A DNA stretch of 64,000 nucleotides from Corynebacterium striatum ATCC 6940. GTDB taxonomy: Bacteria > Actinomycetota > Actinomycetes > Mycobacteriales > Mycobacteriaceae. Below are positions 12,056 through 53,796 of this stretch, one piece after another (positions within the stretch are counted from its first letter, which is position 1; each line of letters starts with the position of its first letter). The notes beneath the pieces are model-generated. The model had not been told where the DNA came from and searched no databases. It saw only the letters and a program-made list of their open reading frames with translations. Position numbers and translations under genes: made by a program. The stretch spans positions 3,621 through 67,620 of the forward strand of contig NZ_GG667521.1 in assembly GCF_000159135.1 (NCBI RefSeq), in the 5' to 3' direction.

Positions 12056-13207
12056 TTATTCGTTTTTTCTCAAGGTCAAAGTCAGCACAGTAAGTGCCAC
12101 CGCGAGCCCCGTATAGACTACGACGAAGCCGGCCCAGGGGAGGGCGTCGAAAAGCAGCCCTGCCACCGCGCCCACCACGGAAGAGCCGAAGTAATAACAA
12201 AACACGTACATGCTTGAAGCCTCAGCGCGGTCGTGCGTGGCAAGGTGGCCCACCCAACCTGAAGCCGTGGAGTGCGCTGCGAAGAATCCCACCGTCAGTG
12301 CCACGATTCCTACCAACACCACCGGCAGCGGGCCAGCGCATAGCGCGATGCCCACCGTGAAAAGTAGCGACGAGGCGAACAACGTCTTGCCATGACCAAT
12401 CTGCTGCACCAACTTGCCCGCGCGTGCTGAGGACCACGTGCCGGTGAGGTAGAAGAGGAACACCGAACCCGCCAACGCCGGGGCGAGACCGAAATGCTCA
12501 ATGAGCCTAAATCCCAAGAAGTTATACATGGACACGAAGGTGCCCATCGCCAAAAATGCGACTAGGAACAGGGGCGCGAGCTGGCGATTATGCCAATGGG
12601 CGAAGATGGCGCGCAGTTCATTGCCCAAGCGGATGGACTTCGGCGTGAAGTTGCGCTGCGCAGGAAGCAGGATGATGCAGATCGCCGCGAAGAGCAGGGA
12701 GACGCAGGCAGAACCGAGTAGCGCCCAGCGCCAAGAACTAAATTCCAAAATTCCCGTGGGGATAAGACGCCCGCTAAGGCCCCCAATGGAGGTGCCGGCA
12801 ATATAGAGACCCATCGCGCGGGCAAGATCCTTGGCGTCGAGTTCTTCCGAGAGCCAGGCCATTGCCGTGGCAGGTGCGCCAGCCATCACTGCACCTTGGA
12901 GGCCGCGCAACGCGATGAGCGTGGCGGCATTCGGGGCTAGTGGCACCACGAGCCCGAGCACCGTCGCTGCGATGGCGGAGATGATAAGCAGACGCCCGCG
13001 GCCGAAGCGCTCCGACAGGATCGAGGCGGGGACCACGCATACAGCCAGCGAACCGGTCGCTGCAGAAATCGTCAGCGCGGCTTGCGTGGAGCTTAGACCC
13101 ATCTGGGCGACCAAGGTCGGCAGCATGGCCTGTGTGGTGTACAAACAGGAGAAGATTGCGAGGCCCACGAAGAGCATCGCGAGTGTGGCGCGCCGGGTTC
13201 TGGTCAT
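12056..13207 (-). CDS. MFS transporter, probable exporter
   Basis: Membrane transporter of 383 residues with 12 predicted helices. The motif SERFGRGRLLI between helices 2 and 3 is the MFS motif A region. It belongs to the YnfM/drug-efflux-like branch. The ATG at 13207 begins MTRTRRATLAMLF; longer versions would read back across the divergent LysR gene. It is the first gene of an operon with the membrane protein downstream and faces a LysR regulator across a 156-bp spacer. LysR-divergent MFS genes are often controlled by that regulator. Substrate unknown. Confidence 0.87.
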   Translation of the reverse strand: MTRTRRATLAMLFVGLAIFSCLYTTQAMLPTLVAQMGLSSTQAALTISAATGSLAVCVVPASILSERFGRGRLLIISAIAATVLGLVVPLAPNAATLIALRGLQGAVMAGAPATAMAWLSEELDAKDLARAMGLYIAGTSIGGLSGRLIPTGILEFSSWRWALLGSACVSLLFAAICIILLPAQRNFTPKSIRLGNELRAIFAHWHNRQLAPLFLVAFLAMGTFVSMYNFLGFRLIEHFGLAPALAGSVFLFYLTGTWSSARAGKLVQQIGHGKTLFASSLLFTVGIALCAGPLPVVLVGIVALTVGFFAAHSTASGWVGHLATHDRAEASSMYVFCYYFGSSVVGAVAGLLFDALPWAGFVVVYTGLAVALTVLTLTLRKNE

Positions 13208-13264
13208 GCATCTAGGATGCTCGCCACCAACGCATGTGTAAAATGTGTGAAACCATATATTTCC

Positions 13265-13307
13265 ATGCATGACATGCATGATGAGATGCGCATGGCGTGA
13301 TACGCAT
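13265..13307. promoter_or_regulatory. Candidate LysR operators in the divergent promoter
   Basis: A perfect 15-base palindrome, ATGCATG-A-CATGCAT (13265-13279), is followed by ATGCG-N12-CGCAT (13286-13290 with 13303-13307), close to the T-N11-A pattern bound by LysR proteins. Both lie between the MFS gene and the LysR gene. Confidence 0.5.
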
Positions 13308-13363
13308 GGCATAGCGAGCATGATTTTGCTCGGCAGGAAGAAACTACAGGAAGAATCCAAGCG

Positions 13364-14269
13364 ATGAATCTCGAGGATGTGCGCGGAGTAGTCGCCGTGG
13401 CCGAGCAAGGTTTGGTGGGTGCTGCAGCTGATGACCTGGGGATCTCCCAATCGGCGTTGACTCGGCGTGTGCAGCGAATTGAGCAGCAGCTCGGGGCAAA
13501 CTTGTTCTCCCGCACAGGGCGGCGGCTGGTCCTCAACTCCCGCGGGGTGGCCTTTGTTCAACATGCGCGGACTATGCTCAACGCGCAGACCGCTGCGCGC
13601 GATGCGGTGGCACGCCTTATGGATCCTGAGCGGGGAACCGTGCGCCTTGACTTCATGCATTCGTTGGGCACTTGGATGGTCCCTGACCTGGTCAAGGCCT
13701 ATCGCGCCCAGCACCCGCACGTCGATATACGGCTACACCAAGGAGCCGCGCGTGAGCTCGTCGAGCGCGTGCTTGCCGGCGAGTCGGACCTCGCCCTTGT
13801 GGGCCCGCGTCCGGCAGGGGTGGCGCAGTCAGGCGAATCGGCGCCCTCATCGAGCGTGACGGAAATTGGCTGGCACCAGATTGAGCTGCAGCGTCTCGGC
13901 CTCGCCGTGCCTGAGGGGCATTGGGCAGCGGGGCGGCAAAGCGTGGACATCGCTGATTTCCGCGATGAGCCATTCATCGGCATGTTGCCTGGCTATGGCA
14001 CGCGCATGCTTCTCGATGCCCTCGCTACCAAAGCGGGATTCTCCCCGCGGCTGGTGTTCGAATCGATGGAGCTGACCACTGTGGCCGGGCTTGTCGACGC
14101 CGGACTCGGCACCGCACTGCTTCCCCTCGACGACCCTTATCTCCAAGCCCGCAACCTCATCCCGTTGGAGCCACCTGCCTTCCGCGAACTCGGCCTCGTG
14201 TGGCGCCCCGGCGATGACGCCCCGCCCGTGGAGCAGTTTCGCGACTTCATCATGGCGCGCTCAGTCTGA
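13364..14269 (+). CDS. LysR family transcriptional regulator
   Basis: Regulator of 301 residues. The N-terminal winged helix (about 1-60) reads MNLEDVRGVVAVAEQG then ISQSALTRRVQRIEQQLGA, the LysR recognition pattern. The C-terminal periplasmic-binding-protein-like sensor domain begins near residue 90 (TVRLDFMHSLGTWMVPDLV). AGGAAG precedes the ATG. It is divergent from the MFS operon and most likely controls it and itself. The effector is unknown. Confidence 0.9.
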   Translation: MNLEDVRGVVAVAEQGLVGAAADDLGISQSALTRRVQRIEQQLGANLFSRTGRRLVLNSRGVAFVQHARTMLNAQTAARDAVARLMDPERGTVRLDFMHSLGTWMVPDLVKAYRAQHPHVDIRLHQGAARELVERVLAGESDLALVGPRPAGVAQSGESAPSSSVTEIGWHQIELQRLGLAVPEGHWAAGRQSVDIADFRDEPFIGMLPGYGTRMLLDALATKAGFSPRLVFESMELTTVAGLVDAGLGTALLPLDDPYLQARNLIPLEPPAFRELGLVWRPGDDAPPVEQFRDFIMARSV

Positions 14270-14306
14270 CGGCTTAAGGGACATTTGGCCCTTAAGCCGT
14301 CTGACT
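14263..14306. repeat. Long hairpin overlapping the LysR stop codon
   Basis: Arms of 18 bases with one mismatch (14263-14280 and 14289-14306; core CGGCTTAAGGG / CCCTTAAGCCG) and an 8-base loop. No T-tract follows on the plus strand. It could end LysR transcripts or protect their 3' ends. Confidence 0.6.
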
Positions 14307-14309
14307 GGG

Positions 14310-14339
14310 GCAAGAAAAAGACCGCCCGGAGGCGGTCTT
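14310..14339 (-). terminator. Terminator of sodA
   Basis: AGACCGCC / GGCGGTCT stem (14319-14326 with 14331-14338); read on the minus strand it is followed by TTTTTCTT. Confidence 0.85.
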
Positions 14340-14367
14340 AACCAATGCAAGCTAACGCGTATGCGGC

Positions 14368-14970
14368 TTACTTGGAAGCTGCAGCGAAGCGCTCTGCAAC
14401 GTCATCCCAGTTGAAGACGTTCCAGACAGCCTTGACGTAGTCAGCCTTAACGTTCTTGTACTGCAGGTAGAAAGCGTGCTCCCACATATCGAGCATGAGC
14501 AGCGGGGTGAAGTTGATGGAGGTGTTGCCCTGCTGATCGGTCAGCTGCTCAACGAGGAGGCGGCCAGCGATGTGGTCGTAGCCCAGGACAGCCCAGCCGG
14601 AGCCCTGCAGGCCAAGAGCCGCAGCGTTGAAGGCCTTCTGGAAAGCCTCGAAGGAACCGAAGTCACGGTTGATAGCCTCAGCCAGCTCGCCGGTTGGCTC
14701 GCCGCCACCGTTAGGGCCAAGGTTCTTCCAGAAGATGGAGTGGTTGGTGTGGCCACCCAGGTTGAAAGCAAGGTTCTTGTACAGAGCGCGGAGGCGGTCT
14801 GCATTGCCCTCGCCCTTAATCTCAGCGTCGATAGCCTCGAGAGCTGCGTTTGCGCCAGCAACATAGTTTGCGTGGTGCTTGGTGTGGTGCAGCTCCATGA
14901 TCTCTGCGGAGATGTGTGGCTCGAGAGCGTCGTATGCGTAGTCGAGTTCTGGGAGTTCGTAGACAGCCAT
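14368..14970 (-). CDS. sodA: Manganese/iron superoxide dismutase
   Basis: Cytoplasmic enzyme of 200 residues that converts superoxide to peroxide and oxygen. All family blocks are present: MAVYELPELDYAYDALEPHI at the start, metal ligands in HHTKHHANYV, NLGGHTNHSIFW, and the Asp/His ligands in LLMLDMWEHAFYL. The block GSGWAVLGYD and the overall type fit a manganese enzyme, but metal choice cannot be proved from sequence. AAAGGAATT precedes the ATG at 14970. It is a single gene with its own terminator, divergent from msrA, which also protects against oxidation. Confidence 0.97.
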   Translation of the reverse strand: MAVYELPELDYAYDALEPHISAEIMELHHTKHHANYVAGANAALEAIDAEIKGEGNADRLRALYKNLAFNLGGHTNHSIFWKNLGPNGGGEPTGELAEAINRDFGSFEAFQKAFNAAALGLQGSGWAVLGYDHIAGRLLVEQLTDQQGNTSINFTPLLMLDMWEHAFYLQYKNVKADYVKAVWNVFNWDDVAERFAAASK

Positions 14971-44690: not shown

Positions 44691-45425
44691 GCTCGAACCA
44701 CTTGTGCGGGCTTTTCACAAGGAAATTGAACAGTCCCTCTCGTTCTTTTCGTCGACGAGCCCCAGTTTTGTCTTTACTGACCTTGACCGGAACATATCTG
44801 TGCGTCTTGACGAGGAAGAAAACGGTAGGCCGGGTATCGTCCCGCTCACGTCTTCGGGCTACGTCGTCCTCGGGATAAAACCAGAATTTAAATGTACCTG
44901 GGATGACAGCCTTTCGTTTCCTGCTATCGATCAATCAAGTTTTGCGATCTATCCTTACGCAAACACGCAGAGGCCTCCACTTTTCCGGGTTGAATACGAT
45001 CGCGATCGGGGCCGTAAGAACCCGAGCGCACATTTTCATGTCCACGCTCATCGCGATGAGTTCACCCATTTGATGGGGTTTAGCGAGAAGCTCAACACGA
45101 AAAAGAACAAGAAAGTCCGCGAATTCCTTAAGAAGGCGCCCGCGATTTCTTCTTTTCATTTCACGAATGGGGGCACCGCTTTCGGCCCATTCTGGAAGAC
45201 GTACTTGAGAGCTTGCGTCTCGAGTTCAACCTCGATGTGGACAACGCATTGTGGCAGGAACACCTCAAAACCGTGCGGCTCAAATGGCATTCGATCCAAA
45301 CTGCCGCCGTTGTACGCGATAACCCAGCTGCTGCAGTGAAGGCTCTGCAGGAAGAATATGGATTGAAGGTCCCCGCTGAATGGGATTGCCCGCCAGCGAG
45401 GATCGACAAGATTAACCGAAGCTAG
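44674..45425 (+). pseudogene. Unknown cassette protein with a one-base frameshift
   Basis: Read with one extra G in the run GGGGG at 45169-45173, this is a continuous protein of about 250 residues: MEAADKLEPLVRAFHKEIEQ at the start, AHFHVHAHRDEFTHLMGF in the middle, then HRFRPILEDVLESLRLEFN and a helical end finishing near PARIDKINRS. As given, the first frame continues only to 45339 with a nonsense-like tail, and the second half lies in another frame. It may be a true mutation, a phase-variable tract or a sequencing error. A His-rich segment (HFHVHAH) is the only notable motif. No family recognised. It converges on hsdR. Confidence 0.65.
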
Positions 45426-48400
45426 TCTTCATCGCGAGAAAGCTCCGAATACCTCGGCGCGAATTTCTCCATCTGTTCAATGACAAGCTTGATGGCCTCC
45501 GGCGCCTTGTCCGGTGGATACTTGTAGTCGCGTAGCAATCTGCGGACCGAGCGTCGTAGTTTCGCACGTACGTCATCGCGTACTGTCCAGTCGGTCTTTG
45601 CATCGCGACGCAGCATGGAAACGAGCTGGCGTGCGATTTCAGCAAGAACTTCGTCGTCCATGAGCTCGGTTGCGGATTCGTTTGTCGACACCGCGTCGAA
45701 GAAGGTGAGCTCGTCATTGCCTAGTGGCGGGGTGAATTGTTCACCGCGTTTGCTTTCCTTGACAATCTCCTTGGACAGGTGGATGAGTTCGGCGATGATT
45801 TCAGCGGCCGTGAGCTGCTGATTGGTGTACCGATTCATCAGCTCGGTGATCCGCTCGGAGAATTGCTTGGAGCGCAGCTCGTTGTTTCCTGTGGCGGTGC
45901 GGGCTTCCTGCTGGAGCTGGCGGCGCAACGCATCGATCAGCAACGAGACCTCAGAGGGGGATTGTTTGTCCTTGAACAGGTCGACGGTGAGATCCTGCAA
46001 GTTCGGAATCTCAATCCCGGCCTGGCGGTAGATGTCGATGACACCGGTGGCCTCAGCCGAATCAACGACCAGCTTGCCTAGGGCGTTGCGGATGGAGTCG
46101 CTAATCGGCTCGCCATTGGCCACGCGGTCGCCTGCATCGAGCTTGATGAGCCAGTTCTTGACCTCGGAATAGAACTGCACGCTCGGACGGAATTCATCGG
46201 CGGCCGGGCTGTTGGACGCAAGCGCCCATGCACGTGCGAGCCTTCCTGCCTGACGCTTGAACTCGTCCGCGACGGGACGCGCATTTGGCTTCTCGGGGTC
46301 GTAGTTGCCTTCGGTTCTTGGATTGCGAAGGAAACCAGTGACATCGAGCAAAGCACGACGAAGGTTGGTGTCATCGATGAAAGCGGTGTTCTTCCACTTG
46401 ATTCCCACAATGTCGTCGAGACGAGCCAGGAATCCCTTCGCCAGAGTTAGTGCTTCCTCAACGTCCTGGCCTGTGACCTTGGTTCCGTCGTCGGAGGGGT
46501 TGAGCGTGAACTCAGCCAGCGCCTTCTCCAAGTTCTCCACCAACGGTGCGTAGGCGACAAGGAGGCCATCCTGCTTGTTTCGGAACGTGCGGTTGACGCG
46601 GGCGAGGGTCTGCATCAGCAGCGCGCTCTTGAGGGAGCGGTCAATGTAGAGCGTGTGCAGCGGCGGTGCGTCGAAGCCGGTGAGCATCATGGATTGGACG
46701 ATGGCGATCTCGAGCTCATCGTCAACATCCTTGATGCGGTTCTTCACGGCCTTGAGCGCGCTCGGACGGCGCATGTGGACCTTGAGCTCATCCGGGTCGG
46801 ACGGCGCGGCAGAGTAGATCACCTTGATCTTGCCCTTGTCATCGGCATCCGAATGCCACTCAGGGCGCAGCGCCACGATCTTGGAGTAGAGGCGTGCCGC
46901 AATGGAACGCGTGGCGGTGACAATCATCGCTTTGCCTGGGGCGCCGATGAATTCCCGCATGTTTTCGCGCCGGTCTTCCCAGTGGCGAACAAAGTCCTCA
47001 GCGAGCGCATCCAAGCGGTCGTCGGAACCGTAAATGATTTCCAACGCGGCGACGGAGCGCTGAATCCGGTCGCGCTCCACCTCGTCGAGACCCGTGAGTA
47101 CTTCCTCGGCAGAGTCATCAATATCGTCATCCGTGATTCCAGCAATGCGCTTGAGTGGGATGAGGCGCGGCTCGAAGTAGACGGGCACCACGGCACCATC
47201 TTCGACGGCGCGGTTCATGTCGTAGACATCCACGTCGTCACCGAAGACCTTGCGCGTATCGCGGTCCCACTCCTTGAGCGGGGTACCGGTAAACGCCAGC
47301 ATGGTGGCATTCGGCAACGCATTACGCAGGTGCTGTGCGTAACCATCAGCGGCGGTATCGCCAAAGCCATAGTGGGAACGGTGTGCCTCGTCGACGATGA
47401 CCACGATGTTGCTCCGGTCAGAGAGCAACGGGTGCTCGGTCTCACGCAACTCACCCTGGCCGTTCAAGCCAAACTTCTGGAGGGTAGAGAAGTAGATGCC
47501 GCCGGAGGTTTTCTGCGACAGCAGCTCACGCAACTCAGCACGCGACTCGATATTGCGCGGTGCCTCCGGCAGGATGGTGGACCGGTTGAAGGTCTCGAAG
47601 AGCTGCTCATCTAGCTCGGTACGGTCATTGAGCACAATGACGGTCGGGCTGAGCATCTCGGACCGACGCATAATCTTGGCGGTGTAGAGCTCCATCTCCA
47701 TGGACTTGCCGGCACCCGTCGTGTGCCAGATGACGCCAGCGCGCTTGTCGCCGCGCGCCGCCGTGATCGTGGAACCCACTGCCTTGGTCACCGCGAAGTA
47801 CTGGTGCGGCTTGGCGATGCGCATTACTAGCCCCTCGGCGGTGTCATCGAACGCCGTGAAGTCGCTGTAGAGCTGTCCAAAACGCTCCACATTAAACAGA
47901 CCATCAAGCAACAGGTCCAGCTGCGTGACCGGCTCGCCGGCCACAACCATGTTGTCGGATGGGACAGGACGGCCGTCCTCATCCACATTCCACGGCGCAA
48001 AGTGGTTCCACGGAGTAAACGGCGTTCCGTACTTGGCGCTGAGGTCATCCGAAGGAATCACAATATTGGCGAAGCGGAAGGCCATGCCGAATTCCTTGAC
48101 GTACGTCTGCAGCTGGTTGTGGGCGCCTTCGATTGAGGTATTCGCGCCCGTTTTCTTCAGCTCGATAAACGCCAGCGGCATGCCGTTGACGTAGCAGACC
48201 ACATCGAAGCGACGCTCGCCGTCCAGGTTCGCAACGGTGACCTGGTTGAGCGACAAATAGTCGTTCATGTGCGGCTGCGAGGACAGGAAGATGATGGTTG
48301 GGTTCTGGACGTTGCCCTCGTGGTCGATGTACTCGATACCGCGGTAGCCTTCCACCAGAATCTGGTGAATGCGCCTGTTCTCCGCAATCGCGGACTGCGA

Positions 48401-48622
48401 CTTCGGCGTGATGACCTCACCGATCGCCTGGTCGAGGTACTCCTCCGGTACACCCGGGTTGAGGTTGCGCACGGCATTGCGCAGTCGCCCGCGCAGCACG
48501 ATGTCATTCCACGTGTCGCGCTCGCCGGAGCCCGGCGCAAAGTCCGGGCCATGCCCAGACACCCACTCCAGTTCCGCCAGGTGGTCTTGAACAATGAGTT
48601 CGAGGGATTCTTCGCTCAGCAT
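45422..48622 (-). CDS. hsdR: Type I restriction enzyme, restriction subunit HsdR
   Basis: Protein of 1066 residues, full length for HsdR. The N-terminal PD-(D/E)XK nuclease shows FIELKKTGANTS near residue 155. The SF2 translocase follows: Walker A in HTTGAGKSMEMEL, DEAD-type VDEAHRSHYGFGDTA, and later motifs GTPLKEWD and LMQTLARVNRTF. The C-terminal part is helical and would contact the methylase core. It translocates and cuts DNA that lacks the host methylation. AAGGAG precedes the ATG. Last gene of the leftward operon, 35 bp after hsdS. Confidence 0.96.
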   Translation of the reverse strand: MLSEESLELIVQDHLAELEWVSGHGPDFAPGSGERDTWNDIVLRGRLRNAVRNLNPGVPEEYLDQAIGEVITPKSQSAIAENRRIHQILVEGYRGIEYIDHEGNVQNPTIIFLSSQPHMNDYLSLNQVTVANLDGERRFDVVCYVNGMPLAFIELKKTGANTSIEGAHNQLQTYVKEFGMAFRFANIVIPSDDLSAKYGTPFTPWNHFAPWNVDEDGRPVPSDNMVVAGEPVTQLDLLLDGLFNVERFGQLYSDFTAFDDTAEGLVMRIAKPHQYFAVTKAVGSTITAARGDKRAGVIWHTTGAGKSMEMELYTAKIMRRSEMLSPTVIVLNDRTELDEQLFETFNRSTILPEAPRNIESRAELRELLSQKTSGGIYFSTLQKFGLNGQGELRETEHPLLSDRSNIVVIVDEAHRSHYGFGDTAADGYAQHLRNALPNATMLAFTGTPLKEWDRDTRKVFGDDVDVYDMNRAVEDGAVVPVYFEPRLIPLKRIAGITDDDIDDSAEEVLTGLDEVERDRIQRSVAALEIIYGSDDRLDALAEDFVRHWEDRRENMREFIGAPGKAMIVTATRSIAARLYSKIVALRPEWHSDADDKGKIKVIYSAAPSDPDELKVHMRRPSALKAVKNRIKDVDDELEIAIVQSMMLTGFDAPPLHTLYIDRSLKSALLMQTLARVNRTFRNKQDGLLVAYAPLVENLEKALAEFTLNPSDDGTKVTGQDVEEALTLAKGFLARLDDIVGIKWKNTAFIDDTNLRRALLDVTGFLRNPRTEGNYDPEKPNARPVADEFKRQAGRLARAWALASNSPAADEFRPSVQFYSEVKNWLIKLDAGDRVANGEPISDSIRNALGKLVVDSAEATGVIDIYRQAGIEIPNLQDLTVDLFKDKQSPSEVSLLIDALRRQLQQEARTATGNNELRSKQFSERITELMNRYTNQQLTAAEIIAELIHLSKEIVKESKRGEQFTPPLGNDELTFFDAVSTNESATELMDDEVLAEIARQLVSMLRRDAKTDWTVRDDVRAKLRRSVRRLLRDYKYPPDKAPEAIKLVIEQMEKFAPRYSELSRDED

Positions 48623-48657: not shown

Positions 48658-49806
48658 TTAGCTTTCCGACGCCGCCATGCCCGCAACGTCCGCAGCCTCA
48701 CCGACCGTGATGCGGCCGCTCATGAGGAGAGGAAGGAGCTCGTCGCGGGTGCGGGCGAGGACTTGGTTTTCGCGTAGAGCGTGCATTGCGCGTTCGTGGA
48801 TGGGAGTGAGCTGCTGTTCGAGTTTTTCGGAGTCACGCAGCACAGGAATTACTGCGTTGTGAAGGTCAGACTTGTTAATACCAGCAAAGACAGTTCCACT
48901 GGATTGGTACGTTTCCCAGAGCTCAGGATGGCCCTTCAGCAGATAGAACAAGCCTAGATGCGATTGTTTCCCGCGAATTGCTGCGATGCCGCGGCCAATG
49001 ACGCAGGGGCGTTCAGCGATATTTACTTCACCAATTGGTGCACGGACTGCAAACAGGATGTCGCCTTCTTGGGCAGTGCGCACGGCCTTCTCCGCAAAGA
49101 CGCGTTCAGATGGAAAGAGCTCGCCAAAGTCACGCACGCCTTGGAAGAAAGGCTCACCAATACCTTCTTCATTCAGGAACTCTCCTTTGGGGGAAGAACC
49201 CATTGTGATGTCTGCGAGATTCTGCAGATGTTCAAGTTCTTTTGTCACGGCCTTCTCAACAAGGTTGATGTTTAGATGAGTGGCAATTTTGATAATGCGT
49301 GAATTTGCGGCGATTTTGTCGTCGAGTGCTTTCAAGACGGACGCGATCTTTTGTTGTTCGCGTATTTCGGGCAAAGAGAACTGGAAGTCCATCATTGCCG
49401 CAGCACTGAGATTCGGTTGTGCCGACTTGGAGTGAGCGTTGGCAAAAATAAACTGCTTCCATGCTGGGGAATTCAATACATATGAAACAAAGACTGGGTC
49501 GACGTCTGAGGTCTTTGGTCTGAATCGCACTAGATAAGAAGCGAAGACTGTTGGCTCGGTACCTCTAAAGAGATGGCTAGCCCCCACGGTTGCACCTGTT
49601 CTGGCTACAACGATGTCATTTTGTTTAAGTAGCTTTTTTCTCCGATCTTCGTCATCGATGTCGACGAAAGGTACACCGGAATAGTCAGTGAAGTTAACTA
49701 TGTCAGTGATACGAAGGAAATGGGTGCCTGTAGGCTGTTCGGTCGCACTGGCGGTGACTCCGTAGTCAGACTCGCATACTTCTTTTAGCGAAACGATTTT
49801 TTTCAT
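48658..49806 (-). CDS. hsdS: Type I restriction enzyme, specificity subunit HsdS
   Basis: Protein of 382 residues with two target-recognition domains, each followed by a conserved helix. The first ends PEIREQQKIASVLKALDDKI near residue 160; the second ends with LTPIHERAMHALRENQVLAR and LLPLLMSGRITV. These helices join HsdM. Recognition domains vary greatly between strains and the DNA site cannot be read from sequence. Its ATG overlaps the hsdM stop by one base (TAATG). No second, truncated hsdS or recombinase is nearby to suggest shuffling. Confidence 0.93.
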   Translation of the reverse strand: MKKIVSLKEVCESDYGVTASATEQPTGTHFLRITDIVNFTDYSGVPFVDIDDEDRRKKLLKQNDIVVARTGATVGASHLFRGTEPTVFASYLVRFRPKTSDVDPVFVSYVLNSPAWKQFIFANAHSKSAQPNLSAAAMMDFQFSLPEIREQQKIASVLKALDDKIAANSRIIKIATHLNINLVEKAVTKELEHLQNLADITMGSSPKGEFLNEEGIGEPFFQGVRDFGELFPSERVFAEKAVRTAQEGDILFAVRAPIGEVNIAERPCVIGRGIAAIRGKQSHLGLFYLLKGHPELWETYQSSGTVFAGINKSDLHNAVIPVLRDSEKLEQQLTPIHERAMHALRENQVLARTRDELLPLLMSGRITVGEAADVAGMAASES

Positions 49807-51437
49807 TACTTCAACCTCCCCAGCTGTTCGCGCACAACCTCGTCCAGGCGGGCGGCGTCGTCAAGCGTGGCGGTGAGCTCGCCGGTAAGCCGAGCGATCT
49901 TCTCGTCGATGGGCTCGTCGTCTTCTTCGGCCTCGGCGAAACCAACGTAGCGGCCGGGGGTCATGGCGAAGTCGGCATCGCGGATGTCGTCGAGGGAGGC
50001 GGACTTGCAGAAGCCGGCGATGTCTTCGTAGGCCTTGCCCTTTGGGGCGGAGGTGCGGCCGCGCCACAGGCGGTAGGTGTCGGCGATCTTCTGGATGTCC
50101 TCGTCGCTGAAGGTACGCTCCGTGCGGTCAATCATGTGGCCGAGCTCGCGGGCATCGATGAAGAGCACCTGGTTGGTGCGGTCGATGGTGCCCTTGGAAC
50201 CGGCCTTCTTGTCCTTGGCGAAGAACCAGACGCAGACCGGGATCTGCGTGCCGCGGAAGAGCTGTGCAGGAAGTGCGATGACGCAGGAGACGATGTCGTC
50301 TTCCACCATGGCCTTGCGGATATCGCCTTCGCCGGAGGAGTTCGACGTCATCGTGCCGTTGGCCATGACAACACCGGCCTCGCCTTGAGGGGTGAGCTTG
50401 GAAATGATGTGCTGCATCCACGCGAAGTTCGCATTGCGCTTGGGTGGGACGCCGTACTTCCAGCGAGTGTCTTCCTCGTTGCGCGACCAATCCTTGATGT
50501 TGAACGGTGGGTTGGCCATGACGTAGTCCATCTGCTTGTCCGGATGGATGTCACGGGCGAAGGTGTCGGCCCAGCGCTCACCCAAGCCAGCAGAGCTAAT
50601 GGCGTGGATGGCCAGGTTCATCTTGGCCATGCGCCAGGTGCGCTCATTGAGCTCCTGACCGTAGATGGCCAGAGCAGTGCGGTCCTTCTCCGTGGTTTCG
50701 AGGAACTTCTCTGCCTGCACGAACATGCCGCCTGAGCCACAGCAGGGGTCGTAAACACGACCCTGGGTCGGCTCCAGGATTTCTACGAGGGTACGTACGA
50801 CAGGGCGGGGAGTGTAGAACTCGCCGCCACGCTTGCCCTCAGCACGGGCGAACTTCTCCAGGAAGTACTCGTAGACCTCACCCAGCAAATCGCGTGCGCG
50901 TTCTGGCCCCTCTGCGGTGAAACGCGTGGTGCTGAATAAGTCGATGAGTTCGCCCAAACGACGCTGGTCAACGCTTTCCGAGGCGAAGTTCGTGGGCAGG
51001 GTACCTAACAGTGACTCATTGTCCAGCATGAGCTGTTTCATCGCGTTATCGATGAGCTTGCCAATGGACTGGTACTCCTGGCCGGCGTCGGCCGACTTGC
51101 CTTTCGAGTTGTCACGTAGGAAGGTCCAACGAGCGATGGGGTCGACCCAGAAAACGTTCTTCTCACGGTAAGCGTCGATATCCTCCAGGTCTTCCTGGAT
51201 GTACTCTTCGCTATCGCCGCGCTCCTCGCCTTCGGCACGCAGCTCCGCGCGACGGGCATCGAAAGCATCAGTGACGTATTTGAGGAACACCAGTCCTAGG
51301 ACGATGTCCTTGTACTGGGAGGCGTCCATGGAGCCGCGCAGCTTGTCTGCTGCCTTCCACAGTGTGTCCTTGAGCTCTTTGAGGGTGGTGGCGGAGGCAG
51401 CCTCTACGTTCTGCTCATCCTTGACTGAGTTAGTCAT
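49806..51437 (-). CDS. hsdM: Type I restriction enzyme, N6-adenine methylase HsdM
   Basis: Methyltransferase subunit of 543 residues. The N-terminal HsdM helical domain (TLKELKDTLWKAADKLRGSM) is followed by the catalytic domain with SAM motif I, VYDPCCGSGGMFVQAEKF, and motif IV, YVMANPPFNIKDWS. Both are intact, so the enzyme should be active. It lies 53 bp after the helix-turn-helix protein gene and directly before hsdS, forming one operon. AGGAGG-like sequence precedes the ATG. Confidence 0.96.
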   Translation of the reverse strand: MTNSVKDEQNVEAASATTLKELKDTLWKAADKLRGSMDASQYKDIVLGLVFLKYVTDAFDARRAELRAEGEERGDSEEYIQEDLEDIDAYREKNVFWVDPIARWTFLRDNSKGKSADAGQEYQSIGKLIDNAMKQLMLDNESLLGTLPTNFASESVDQRRLGELIDLFSTTRFTAEGPERARDLLGEVYEYFLEKFARAEGKRGGEFYTPRPVVRTLVEILEPTQGRVYDPCCGSGGMFVQAEKFLETTEKDRTALAIYGQELNERTWRMAKMNLAIHAISSAGLGERWADTFARDIHPDKQMDYVMANPPFNIKDWSRNEEDTRWKYGVPPKRNANFAWMQHIISKLTPQGEAGVVMANGTMTSNSSGEGDIRKAMVEDDIVSCVIALPAQLFRGTQIPVCVWFFAKDKKAGSKGTIDRTNQVLFIDARELGHMIDRTERTFSDEDIQKIADTYRLWRGRTSAPKGKAYEDIAGFCKSASLDDIRDADFAMTPGRYVGFAEAEEDDEPIDEKIARLTGELTATLDDAARLDEVVREQLGRLK

Positions 51438-51490: not shown

Positions 51491-53485
51491 TTAGCCTGGT
51501 GGGGATTGTGCACGAGATTCAGCGATGGTGACAGCACCGGTACCTATCGACATGACGAGGCCGTGCTCAAGTTCATCGAGGCTATGTAACTGTTCTAAGA
51601 GCTGCTGGCGTCGTGCGCGGAGCTGTTGCTCGACTGTGCTGAGGTGCTGCGCATTCTTGCGAGGCAATACGGGGAAGTACACCGATCCCAACTCGGAGGA
51701 GACAGCTTCGTTGATAGCCTTCTCTACGAGGTAGGGAATGCAGACCTGTTCCAAGGGAGTGTGGCTGCGTCCACGGAAGGTGCGGCATCGTAGTGCTTGA
51801 GCCGGTGCAGTGACTAGTTTGCCGCCTTCCTCATCGATGAGCGCGCGTGGTCTGGGGCTCTTGATGAAGACCACGTCCCCTGGTTCTGTGAGGGTGCCGC
51901 GCGGTGCAATGTCCTCCAACCGGAGACGATCGATGCAACGTGCGCCCTGTGGAATGCTCCCCAGAATTTCGGGTTCACCGATGAGTTCCAGTTTTGCTAC
52001 TGCTTCGGGGGCGAGATCACGTTCGGCAATGCGGGAGCCGCTGAGTTTCTGCAGCACCCCAGTGCGAGCGTTGGTCGCGGCCTTCCACGGTAGGTACTCA
52101 AGGCGCGTTGCCCCCGATTCAGCGCGCATACCAATCTTTGGCTGCGCGTCCTCCAACCCTGCTGAACTGATGTCTAACCCTGCCTGATGTGCGGTGTGCA
52201 TGAGATCGGCGGCGGAAGACGTCGACGTAGAAGAAAAGACCGAGTCATCGAGAGAATGAGTACGGCTGCGCCAGGCATCAGCGGCGCGAAGAATACGACC
52301 GCGGACAAAGGTGTGCTTGCGCGCTTCATCCGGTGTGGTGAGCATGGTTGCCCAGTCAGAGACGAGACCGGGTGTCTTAAGGTCCGGCACGTCAGCGATA
52401 ACGGCAGCAGCATCGGCAGGGTTGCCTATGGCCTCGCGATTAGGGCGCTTGAGAATCCATAGTGCGCCCTGCTGCTGTCCGCGGTCCGGAAAAATGCCTC
52501 GGGGCAGCCGTGCGCTGTAACGCAGTGGTGCAATTGCGCCGGTTTCAGTCGGTGCGAGGAAACGCCGTCGGACGACCTCCGCTAAAGAGTCCTCGATAAG
52601 CATGTCTGCGGTGGAAATACAGAACATTGCGCCGCGTTCGTCCAAGTTGTCGAGCAAGTCCTGGAGGTGCTCGAAGTATTCGGTCGCATTTTTGAGAGGG
52701 GAAGGAGCGCCGAGGACGATGAGAGAATTTGTTGGGATCTCCTCGCTAGCGTCGATGAATTCCACGTTTCGGCACGCTAGTTCCGCCCAATAGAGAGAGT
52801 CTGGTGCGCAGTCCTTTCGGTATCCGATGTTGAGCGCCAGCGTTTCTTCGAGTTCCCGGGCGAGTCCAGTGACGAAACCTAGGCTGTATTCATCAGTAGG
52901 GATGATAGGTGGAGTTGGGTTTTCTAGCGTGAGGGCTTCCGATACTGCTTGCATAGCGCGGGAAGTAAAACGGGAAGAGAGTGTTACCTGGCGCTGAGCA
53001 CTGAGGTCATCTGCAAGACGGGCGAGCGCGGCCGCGGGCCCGAAAGCCGCCTCGGCTACCTGCTCTGCTGCTTTTGCGATGTCAGCTTCAGGGGCATCAG
53101 AAGGAATGTTGTCTGCTGCGCGCTGGTACGCCGCAGCAAGAGAGTCGATTACTGCAGCAGAGGGCGAAAAATCCTGAGGGGAGGAAGCCGTGTTGCAGTT
53201 CAAAAGGCCCAACGCCGCGCGTGCCGGATTGCGGAGCAGCATTCGGTAGAGCGAAGAATAAAAGAGGGCATCTTCAACGGCTGTGTCGCGGCGGCCGAGC
53301 TTAGTTGCTCGCAGCCAGCCTTGAATTTCGGTGATGGCGTAGTAGGGGTGGCCATCATGTTCTCCGCAAGGGGAGGGGAAGGGCGCGATGGATTCTGAGT
53401 TAAAGCGCTGAATCCACTCGTTGACCGCGGGGCGCGTAACGCCGGTCAGCCGGGCGACATCGGCGAGTGTCAGTGTTGCGGTCAC
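51491..53485 (-). CDS. HTH protein with pseudo-methyltransferase and HsdS-like C-terminus
   Basis: Protein of 664 residues, first gene of the hsd operon. Residues 1-60 are a helix-turn-helix (LTLADVARLTGVTRPAVNEW). The middle resembles an N6-adenine methylase but has no motif I, and at the motif IV position reads SLIVLGAPSPL instead of the usual NPPF/Y. The following block (RGAMFCISTADMLIEDSLAE to LPRGIFPDRGQQQGALWILK) matches the downstream methylase pattern. The last 200 look like an HsdS recognition domain with LPRKNAQHLSTVEQQLRARR as its coiled helix. Inferred role: regulator or assembly factor of the system. GTG at 53485 has an AAAGGAGG site. Confidence 0.75.
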   Translation of the reverse strand: MTATLTLADVARLTGVTRPAVNEWIQRFNSESIAPFPSPCGEHDGHPYYAITEIQGWLRATKLGRRDTAVEDALFYSSLYRMLLRNPARAALGLLNCNTASSPQDFSPSAAVIDSLAAAYQRAADNIPSDAPEADIAKAAEQVAEAAFGPAAALARLADDLSAQRQVTLSSRFTSRAMQAVSEALTLENPTPPIIPTDEYSLGFVTGLARELEETLALNIGYRKDCAPDSLYWAELACRNVEFIDASEEIPTNSLIVLGAPSPLKNATEYFEHLQDLLDNLDERGAMFCISTADMLIEDSLAEVVRRRFLAPTETGAIAPLRYSARLPRGIFPDRGQQQGALWILKRPNREAIGNPADAAAVIADVPDLKTPGLVSDWATMLTTPDEARKHTFVRGRILRAADAWRSRTHSLDDSVFSSTSTSSAADLMHTAHQAGLDISSAGLEDAQPKIGMRAESGATRLEYLPWKAATNARTGVLQKLSGSRIAERDLAPEAVAKLELIGEPEILGSIPQGARCIDRLRLEDIAPRGTLTEPGDVVFIKSPRPRALIDEEGGKLVTAPAQALRCRTFRGRSHTPLEQVCIPYLVEKAINEAVSSELGSVYFPVLPRKNAQHLSTVEQQLRARRQQLLEQLHSLDELEHGLVMSIGTGAVTIAESRAQSPPG

Positions 53486-53597
53486 TTGAGGCCTCCTTTC
53501 ATAGGGTAGTGATGGGGAATAGGGGCGAGCGGTCATCGATGATTGCTCTGTCCAATACGTTAAATGAACTCGATTAAAGTACCCAGCTTTTAGTCTG

Positions 53598-53635
53598 TTA
53601 ATTATCCTGAAGGGGGCTTAAGGCCGATTAATTAA
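53598..53635. promoter_or_regulatory. AT-rich inverted repeat upstream of the hsd operon
   Basis: TTAATTA (53598-53604) and TAATTAA (53629-53635) are inverted copies separated by 24 bases, about 110 bp upstream of the first gene of the leftward operon. It is a candidate operator for the helix-turn-helix protein encoded there. Confidence 0.35.
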
Positions 53636-53692
53636 TAATAAAATAGTGTTGCCCAAGAGTGGTTTGGTTTTCGCGGGGATCGGGCTTCAAAG

Positions 53693-53796
53693 TCGACATG
53701 TGCATGGTTATCGCCTCTGCGCTGAGCATGTTCGACAACAAGCTGGCTCCGTTCTGGAACGAGGGCAAGGCGCTTGAGCAGGAGTGCGGCCACTAA
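53693..53796 (+). pseudogene. glf: Diverged remnant of the glf 3' end
   Basis: The 104 bp correspond base for base, without gaps, to the last 104 bp of glf (40023-40126), with about 10 differences by eye. It still reads ATCGCCTCTGCGCT and TTCGACAACAAGCTGG and ends in a TAA, but has no start or upstream gene. Some differences change amino acids (His to Cys, Ala to Val, Arg to Cys), so it is no longer under selection as glf. Confidence 0.9.

Follow-up and report, generated by a model that had tools for sequence, protein, structure and literature searches.

The window, a 64,000-nt stretch of Corynebacterium striatum ATCC 6940 DNA (contig NZ_GG667521.1), carries on its minus strand a type I restriction operon whose tightly packed genes follow the order X-hsdM-hsdS-hsdR. 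Gene X encodes a winged helix-turn-helix (HTH) joined to a pseudo-N6-methylase and a single HsdS half, and we propose it as a regulator of the operon. The genes, together with the translation signal of X, are located as follows:

51491-53485, minus strand: gene X, the proposed operon regulator, 664 aa with a GTG start
53492-53499, minus strand: Shine-Dalgarno sequence AAAGGAGG, 6 nt ahead of the GTG at 53485
49806-51437, minus strand: hsdM, catalytic motifs present
48658-49806, minus strand: hsdS, from the ORF list and a profile match
45422-48622, minus strand: hsdR, from the ORF list and a profile match

The longest open reading frame over X runs from 51491 to 53536 (681 aa), and residues of X are numbered in this 681-aa frame throughout. 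The GTG at 53485 is nevertheless a better start than 53536, because of the Shine-Dalgarno spacing and because locus L018, the C. tuberculostearicum orthologue (74% identical to X), has an ATG at the matching codon; both observations favour the coordinates 51491-53485 given in a preliminary description of this DNA. The neighbouring hsdM retains DPCCGSGG and NPPF and matches the Pfam N6_Mtase model at an E-value of 2e-114, in agreement with the earlier claim that both of its motifs are intact. Along the X protein, we distinguish the following parts:

53297-53485, minus strand: winged HTH domain, residues 18-80, with a predicted recognition helix at 35-48 that includes A37 (sub-threshold Pfam matches and AlphaFold model)
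52097-52969, minus strand: degenerate N6-methylase region, residues ~190-480, with PTDEYSLG at motif I and GAPSP at motif IV (profile alignment)
51677-52069, minus strand: HsdS-like target-recognition-type domain (TRD), residues ~490-620, TEPGDVVF... (hhalign; the profile of the related A2 proteins, described below, matches HsdS structures)
51521-51676, minus strand: C-terminal HsdS-type helical part, residues ~621-672 (hhalign)

In Pfam, the HTH of the window's X gives sub-threshold matches alone (HTH_29, E 7e-4; HTH_23, E 8e-4). An AlphaFold model of residues 18-97 is a winged HTH with a mean pLDDT of 72.5 (71-83 by block over the first 60 residues) and a pTM of 0.51, and its top matches in the PDB are of the MerR type (CarA, probability 0.97; CarH, 0.94), these matches being weak (best E 0.026, TM ≤0.46 to query length). 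The whole of X, modelled from two sequences, reached a pLDDT of 33.5.

Searched alone, the window's X matched no methylase model in Pfam (E ≤10, N6_Mtase being without a match above its cut-off), NCBIfam (≤1) or PADLOC (≤1), and a single-sequence search of solved structures returned none at E ≤1. The profile built from 49 X proteins (A1) matched HsdM structures (3lkd, E 9e-7; EcoKI M, E 3e-5). Profile-versus-profile comparisons in hhalign, whose E-values refer to a single comparison, aligned the middle of X with HsdM (88.5%, pairwise E 2.7e-6) and residues 483-668 with an HsdS half comprising TRD and helix (94.5%, pairwise E 7e-8). A complete HsdS has a pair of TRDs and a pair of conserved helical regions; X carries one such half. 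An N6-methylase is recognized by SAM motif I and by a catalytic motif IV of the form (N/D/S)PP(Y/F/W); the window's X reads PTDEYSLG at the first position and GAPSP at the second, and agrees with neither definition. As judged from this alignment, both methylase motifs are lost in the window's protein. The preliminary description had read X as an N-terminal HTH, a methylase-like middle lacking motif I and bearing GAPSP, and a C-terminal HsdS-type helix, and the analysis bears out each part, the last being in fact a TRD plus helix.

To place X among its relatives, we drew on searches at several taxonomic levels. Among 242 Corynebacterium genomes, 17 gave matches, 10 full length and 7 to the HTH only; the order-level search matched 99 of 397 genomes, many by the HTH only, and the class-level search 45 of 296 at E ≤1e-5. 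A phylum-wide profile search matched at least 7 of 296 genomes at E ≤1e-15, a figure that is no estimate of prevalence, three candidates having been scored per genome. We then took 100 regions, 82 of them matched by the X searches and 18 being hsdM loci of Corynebacterium. The 82 comprise 8 full-length Corynebacterium genes (excluding the window and the genome of L018), six of the seven HTH-only places and the best-scoring order and class matches, while the seventh HTH-only place (L121) sits in one of the 18 hsdM loci. Two alignments resulted: A1, holding the 49 X proteins, and A2, holding 39 HTH-methylase relatives (sets Y and Z), with X sorted from Y and Z by eye for L084-L087 and by profile score thereafter. 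Viral contigs, scanned with different queries, yielded no relative.

The same X-hsd set also occurs on two conjugative plasmids, from Arthrobacter and Paenarthrobacter, where X is annotated as 'hypothetical protein'. A further complete X-M-S-R set, adjoined by a lactate-dehydrogenase-like ORF, occurs in a record named 'Bacteriophage sp.' (L208, MT835479.1), which by eye resembles actinobacterial chromosomal DNA.

The HTH-N6_Mtase proteins of Actinobacteria gathered in A2 are homologous to X over their full length (633 columns, hhalign 100%, pairwise E 2e-48), and X shares with this HTH-N6_Mtase-TRD family the same order of HTH, N6-methylase and HsdS half, so that it belongs among them. All 39 A2 proteins match both the PADLOC 'Type I methyltransferase' model PDLC03037 and Pfam N6_Mtase (E ≤0.01), and their profile matches HsdM (7vru, E 1e-50) and HsdS (5ybb_D and 3okg, E ~1e-13). 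Unlike X, they keep SAM motif I in 39/39 cases (36 DPxxGxG, 3 DPACGIAG), and their genes have no X-type operator upstream. Among the X proteins, a motif-I-like string is kept in 9/49 and a motif-IV-like string in 4/49, and 9/49 match N6_Mtase at E ≤0.01. By the A2 homology and the HsdM and HsdS profile matches, X belongs to a family of HTH-M-S fusions and forms a branch of it that has eroded. The proteins of L077, L079 and L083 look nearly intact, and for this reason we do not extend the loss of catalysis to the whole family.

Motif IV of the A2 proteins is itself variable, being canonical, (N/D/S)PP(F/Y), in 11/39 and otherwise HPPF (7), EPPL (3), GPPY (2), APPY (2) and others; much of the family (for example L087:6231-8144 and L166-L205) may bind SAM without methylating. 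Of the 29 A2 proteins from outside Corynebacterium, 9 precede a second, distant hsdM clade.

Could X be a functionless, decaying remnant of a methylase gene? Motifs I and IV are lost in most members, as such a reading predicts. The rest of the protein behaves otherwise: the 49 X proteins share 11 invariant columns, all 10 full-length Corynebacterium genes are free of stops, and codon analysis of 8 pairs put the dN/dS ratio at 0.17-0.28 in the methylase-like part and at 0.07-0.26 in the TRD-like part. Higher ratios were confined to short segments with small counts (the tail, up to 0.76; the HTH, 1.06, in the two closest strains; the linker, 1.95). By these ratios the body of X is under purifying selection and, with the predicted operator described below conserved as well, decay is the least probable of the readings that we considered, with hardly any weight left to it.

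The 49 X loci were chosen by X similarity and not by neighbouring genes; in 49/49 of them X lies upstream of hsdM on the same strand. The distance is ≤500 nt in 46/49, the others being L187 (777 nt), L063 (2419 nt) and L058 (3053 nt). HsdS was found in 48/49 loci and HsdR in 46/49, some contigs ending early. The preliminary description had held that homologues sitting mainly away from restriction genes would speak against its idea, and the relatives are distributed in the opposite way. Viewed from the side of the enzyme, 22 close Corynebacterium hsdM loci (>700 bits) divide into 10 preceded by X, 6 preceded by Y, which thus stands before the same hsdM, and 6 preceded by neither; 8 more distant Corynebacterium hsdM loci showed no X or Y. 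This check covered fetched flanks and ORFs of ≥120 aa, so that shorter remnants could escape it. Because 6 of the 22 close loci have neither X nor Y, the hsd enzyme can evidently do without X in some hosts; one of these six has a broken hsdM. In this locus (L127:7621-12194, genome G059), hsdM is split, with ORFs inside it that by eye are transposase-like, and neither X nor Y is found upstream.

The preliminary description had suggested that X could sense target-site methylation. On this reading, X would sense the enzyme's own sites through its TRD-like domain and adjust restriction, and the homology of its C-terminal part to an HsdS half speaks in favour. We compared evolutionary distances across the 46/49 loci in which all genes were found. 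In Mantel tests, distances of the X body correlated with those of HsdM (r 0.81) and HsdR (0.81) and with those of HsdS at 0.17, a weak value though above chance; for the TRD-like part alone, the corresponding values were 0.76, 0.75 and 0.17. HsdM versus HsdS gave 0.18, X versus HsdS being about as weak. Moreover, in 16/16 locus pairs (17 were listed, one without HsdS) the TRD-like part of X was 50-98% identical where the adjacent HsdS proteins were 25-57% identical. Since the divergence of X tracks HsdM and HsdR and hardly HsdS, X is not expected to read the enzyme's target, and it does not share the enzyme's changing specificity. With both methylase motifs also missing from the window's X, methylation sensing appears very unlikely. 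A further suggestion, that X is an extra defence component, found nothing in its favour.

One X-led operon (L072:6505-8205) has two further genes between hsdS and hsdR, one for DarT and one for a macro-domain (DarG-like) protein; a search with these proteins detected neither in the other X loci. A DarTG2 module embedded in a type I system has been described in the RptR island (PMC12255303).

An alignment of the upstream regions of four Corynebacterium relatives brought out the following sequence:

GTTAAGGGNNCTTAAC

In general form, the predicted operator consists of two complementary 6-bp arms with TAA cores 10 bp apart, a 16-bp inverted repeat. Scored with a half-site pattern that was set after part of the data had been inspected, a site upstream of X was found with penalty 0 in 24/49 loci, ≤1 in 35/49 and ≤2 in 44/49; among 1960 windows of 350 nt drawn at random from the same loci, the respective figures were 0.1%, 0.25% and 0.8%. 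The 39 A2 relatives had a penalty ≤1 upstream in no case and a penalty of 2 in three. An unguided dyad scan upstream of X recovered the same dyads at its top (GATA-8-TATC, ATAA-6-TTAT, TAAG-4-CTTA and TAAC-4-GTTA), and the same scan upstream of the Y and Z genes found no comparable shared palindrome. The 883 kb of the 49 X loci contain 28 perfect-type sites, and 909 kb from 53 non-X loci contain none. Furthermore, the exact clade-specific site was single in each of 23 genomes (10, 7 and 6), with 0 matches for the backward control; these genomes had been preselected for a site at X, and the information therefore lies in the lack of a second exact site. Three loci that played no part in discovery (L206, a plasmid copy, as well as L207 and L208) all have a perfect site, with a TANNNT at 32-33 nt. 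No good operator site was found upstream of X in L053, L058 and L063 (3/49).

Six of the 28 perfect-type sites fall outside the called upstream region. In L076 and L200 this is merely since the predicted start lies too far upstream, and in L077 and L083 the perfect site precedes an extra leading gene ahead of X (L077:12502-13140 and L083:5861-6664), ~220 nt before its likely start. The leading protein of L077 has no Pfam match, neither of these two operators has a TANNNT at the usual distance, and X in both loci keeps DPAAGLG and DPPF. In L081, the stretch separating hsdS from hsdR contains a perfect operator-type site (9433) ahead of the latter gene, again with no TANNNT at the usual distance. 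A second perfect operator in L191 (12205), with a -10-like box at 35 nt, precedes an SMC/AAA-type ATPase gene (12312-14753) that follows hsdR, making this gene a possible further member of the regulon; of the four extra operator sites, L191 alone has such a box at the right spacing.

A candidate -10 element accompanies the operator. In 36 of 44 loci, a TANNNT starts 31-35 nt past it, where comparable windows elsewhere average 1.7/44; with the window's clade re-assigned and 36 nt allowed, the spacing fits in 41/44, the exceptions being L062, L080 and L189. These statistics, like the covariation below, omit the 5/49 loci with an operator penalty >2. No -35 element is conserved, TTG occurring in ≤3/41 loci for any spacer of 15-19.

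In the window itself, the corresponding features are as follows:

53597-53612, minus strand: predicted operator core CTTCAG-GATA-ATTAAC, kept with its -10 in L048 and L018, penalty 4
53597-53632, minus strand: array of four half-sites at 10-bp pitch (ATTAAT, CTTAAG, CTTCAG, ATTAAC), the two upper pairs having penalty 2
53557-53562, minus strand: predicted -10 box TAACGT, 34 nt past the operator core

The region 53486-53700, for which the preliminary description had proposed gel shifts, contains this array. The pair CTTCAG-GATA-ATTAAC was picked afterwards, by its -10 spacing, and L048 (TAACGT) and L018 (TATGGT) have a -10-like box at the matching spacing. The CTTCAGN4ATTAAC-type pair has penalty 4 in the window and L048 and 2 in L018, where the middle pair is perfect. 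By these penalties, a pattern that is strong across the family is weakly represented in the window.

We had also considered CTTAAGN4CTTCAG as the operator of the window's clade, and dropped it in favour of CTTCAGN4ATTAAC, which fits the -10 spacing better though it is less symmetrical. The form CTTAAGN4CTTMAG (53607-53622) occurs at one place in each of the 3 genomes of this clade; its uniqueness says little, because the backward control matches too (one match on each strand of G000, one in G182 and none in G106).

Which protein binds the operator is indicated by covariation between the two. In a 42-row table, from which two rows with S at residue 37 were omitted, operator base 2 is T where residue 37 of X is A (12 rows) and another base where it is V (29 rows), with one exception (L064). 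On a tree built without the HTH, 5/5 phylogenetically independent pairs agree (p 0.0625, the best that so few pairs allow), the link having been noticed first and then tested on the same rows. The clearest pair is that of the sisters L066 (V, GATAAG) and L192 (A, GTTAAG), joined with support 80. In the HTH model, residue 37 falls early in the recognition helix (it is residue 20 of the model, in helix H18-31). A second apparent covariation, between residue 40 and base 6, was dropped as confounded by descent.

An alternative is that X acts within the enzyme, joining HsdM or HsdS in mixed or decoy complexes and so limiting restriction, and that the palindrome belongs to some other host regulator. 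A selected M- and S-like body whose divergence tracks HsdM (r 0.81) would suit this role. A host regulator, however, is expected at further promoters as well, whereas the exact site is single-copy in 23/23 genomes tested and the 53 non-X loci are without a perfect-type site, and base 2 covaries with the recognition helix of X itself. We consider this alternative improbable, and very probably it is X that binds the predicted operator.

The position of the operator bears on the direction of control. With TANNNT taken as the -10, the operator would occupy ~-61 to -46 and lie beyond the -35 region on its upstream side. The stretch usually covered by repressors is -35 to +1. Actinobacterial promoters often have no -35, and for this reason the absence of one is no proof of activation. 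The predicted position is activator-like, and if X binds there, the balance leans somewhat towards activation rather than repression. Against X being an autorepressor that holds the operon down from this operator and releases it on some signal stand the location of the site, which precedes the -35 region and keeps a nearly constant spacing to the -10, and the unconserved -35. The operator and the -10 spacing as such apply equally to such an autorepressor, and precedents exist: RptR represses type I systems of Gammaproteobacteria (PMC12255303) and HTH-fused type II methylases autorepress (PMC12707154), according to the accessible text of these sources. Autorepression in the manner of RptR is possible, and we hold it to be the less plausible direction.

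The sequences support the architecture of X, the motif loss in the window, the hsdM link, the operator with its -10 spacing, the covariation and the selection on the body. We consider it probable that X serves as a dedicated regulator of transcription for the type I restriction operon in which it lies. In our preferred model, a dimer of X would set its two winged HTHs on half-sites 10 bp apart, just upstream of the -35 region, and would most likely recruit RNA polymerase to a promoter without a recognizable -35, resulting in positive autoregulation of the entire X-hsdM-hsdS-hsdR operon. The methylase-like and HsdS-like body would descend from an M-S fusion, have no catalytic role left and be retained for dimerization. 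More tentatively, this body might be a sensor of enzyme subunits, competing for the contacts that HsdM or the assembled enzyme makes and thereby gauging how much of either is available, such that expression would follow the enzyme level. X might then be a stoichiometry sensor, a dead half M-S copy that replaces free HsdM or enzyme in a complex and ties transcription to its product. The preliminary description had offered, among its suggestions, that a pseudo-enzyme regulator could set restriction levels, and this is the one that gains from the operator-promoter layout, the match between operator and HTH and the 49/49 linkage to hsdM.

Among known regulators, controller (C) proteins are small, stand-alone Xre-type HTH proteins. 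Like them, X is an HTH regulator encoded with restriction-modification (RM) genes, with a conserved predicted operator in its own promoter, and in this sense it appears to follow their working principle; at 664 aa, and with an HTH model that is MerR-like at weak scores, it falls outside their family. The accessible literature names as regulators of RM genes C proteins, HTH-fused type II methylases, HsdC and RptR (PMC12707154, PMC5282649, PMC12255303), and a 2025 review finds 'surprisingly little information' on transcriptional control of type I systems (PMC12707154, accessible text). M.SsoII-type regulatory methylases, described there as an N-terminal HTH region plus a methylase that regulates RM transcription (PMC12707154), resemble X in joining an HTH to a methylase-type body. 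They differ in being active type II methylases that autorepress (M.SsoII is a cytosine-5 enzyme), whereas X belongs to a type I operon and is a dead M-S fusion of the N6 type, with no catalytic motifs in the window's protein. HsdC of Mollicutes, in the available description, serves an hsd operon and binds direct repeats, (GTGTTAN5)2, at other promoters too (PMC5282649); by this description it stands apart from X with its 16-bp inverted repeat. RptR, like X, is encoded upstream of type I RM genes and has conserved sites in its own promoter, and is described, in the accessible text, as a 79-aa repressor that recognizes the 6-bp palindrome TAGCTA in repeats in Gammaproteobacteria (PMC12255303); by description it differs from X in having no methylase or HsdS part. 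Nor does X fit the MADS systems: in PADLOC the window's X matches mad1 alone (E 0.0068) and the rest of the operon is plain hsdMSR, while across the X family MADS models match at E ≤0.001 in 16/49 (mad2) and 5/49 (mad1) proteins. In a literature search that had subscription papers and preprints outside its scope, none of the top-ranked results dealt with an HTH-pseudo-M-S protein at the head of hsdMSR.

For this clade of actinobacterial type I operons, X is thus a candidate dedicated controller, and most of the members examined have a predicted site. The predicted binding site and the predicted specificity residue make type I control directly testable, and could help in dealing with barriers to transformation in corynebacteria and related bacteria. 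If the model is true, a restriction enzyme's own dead copy has been turned into its regulator: X would work like a controller protein, yet be built from the enzyme that it controls.
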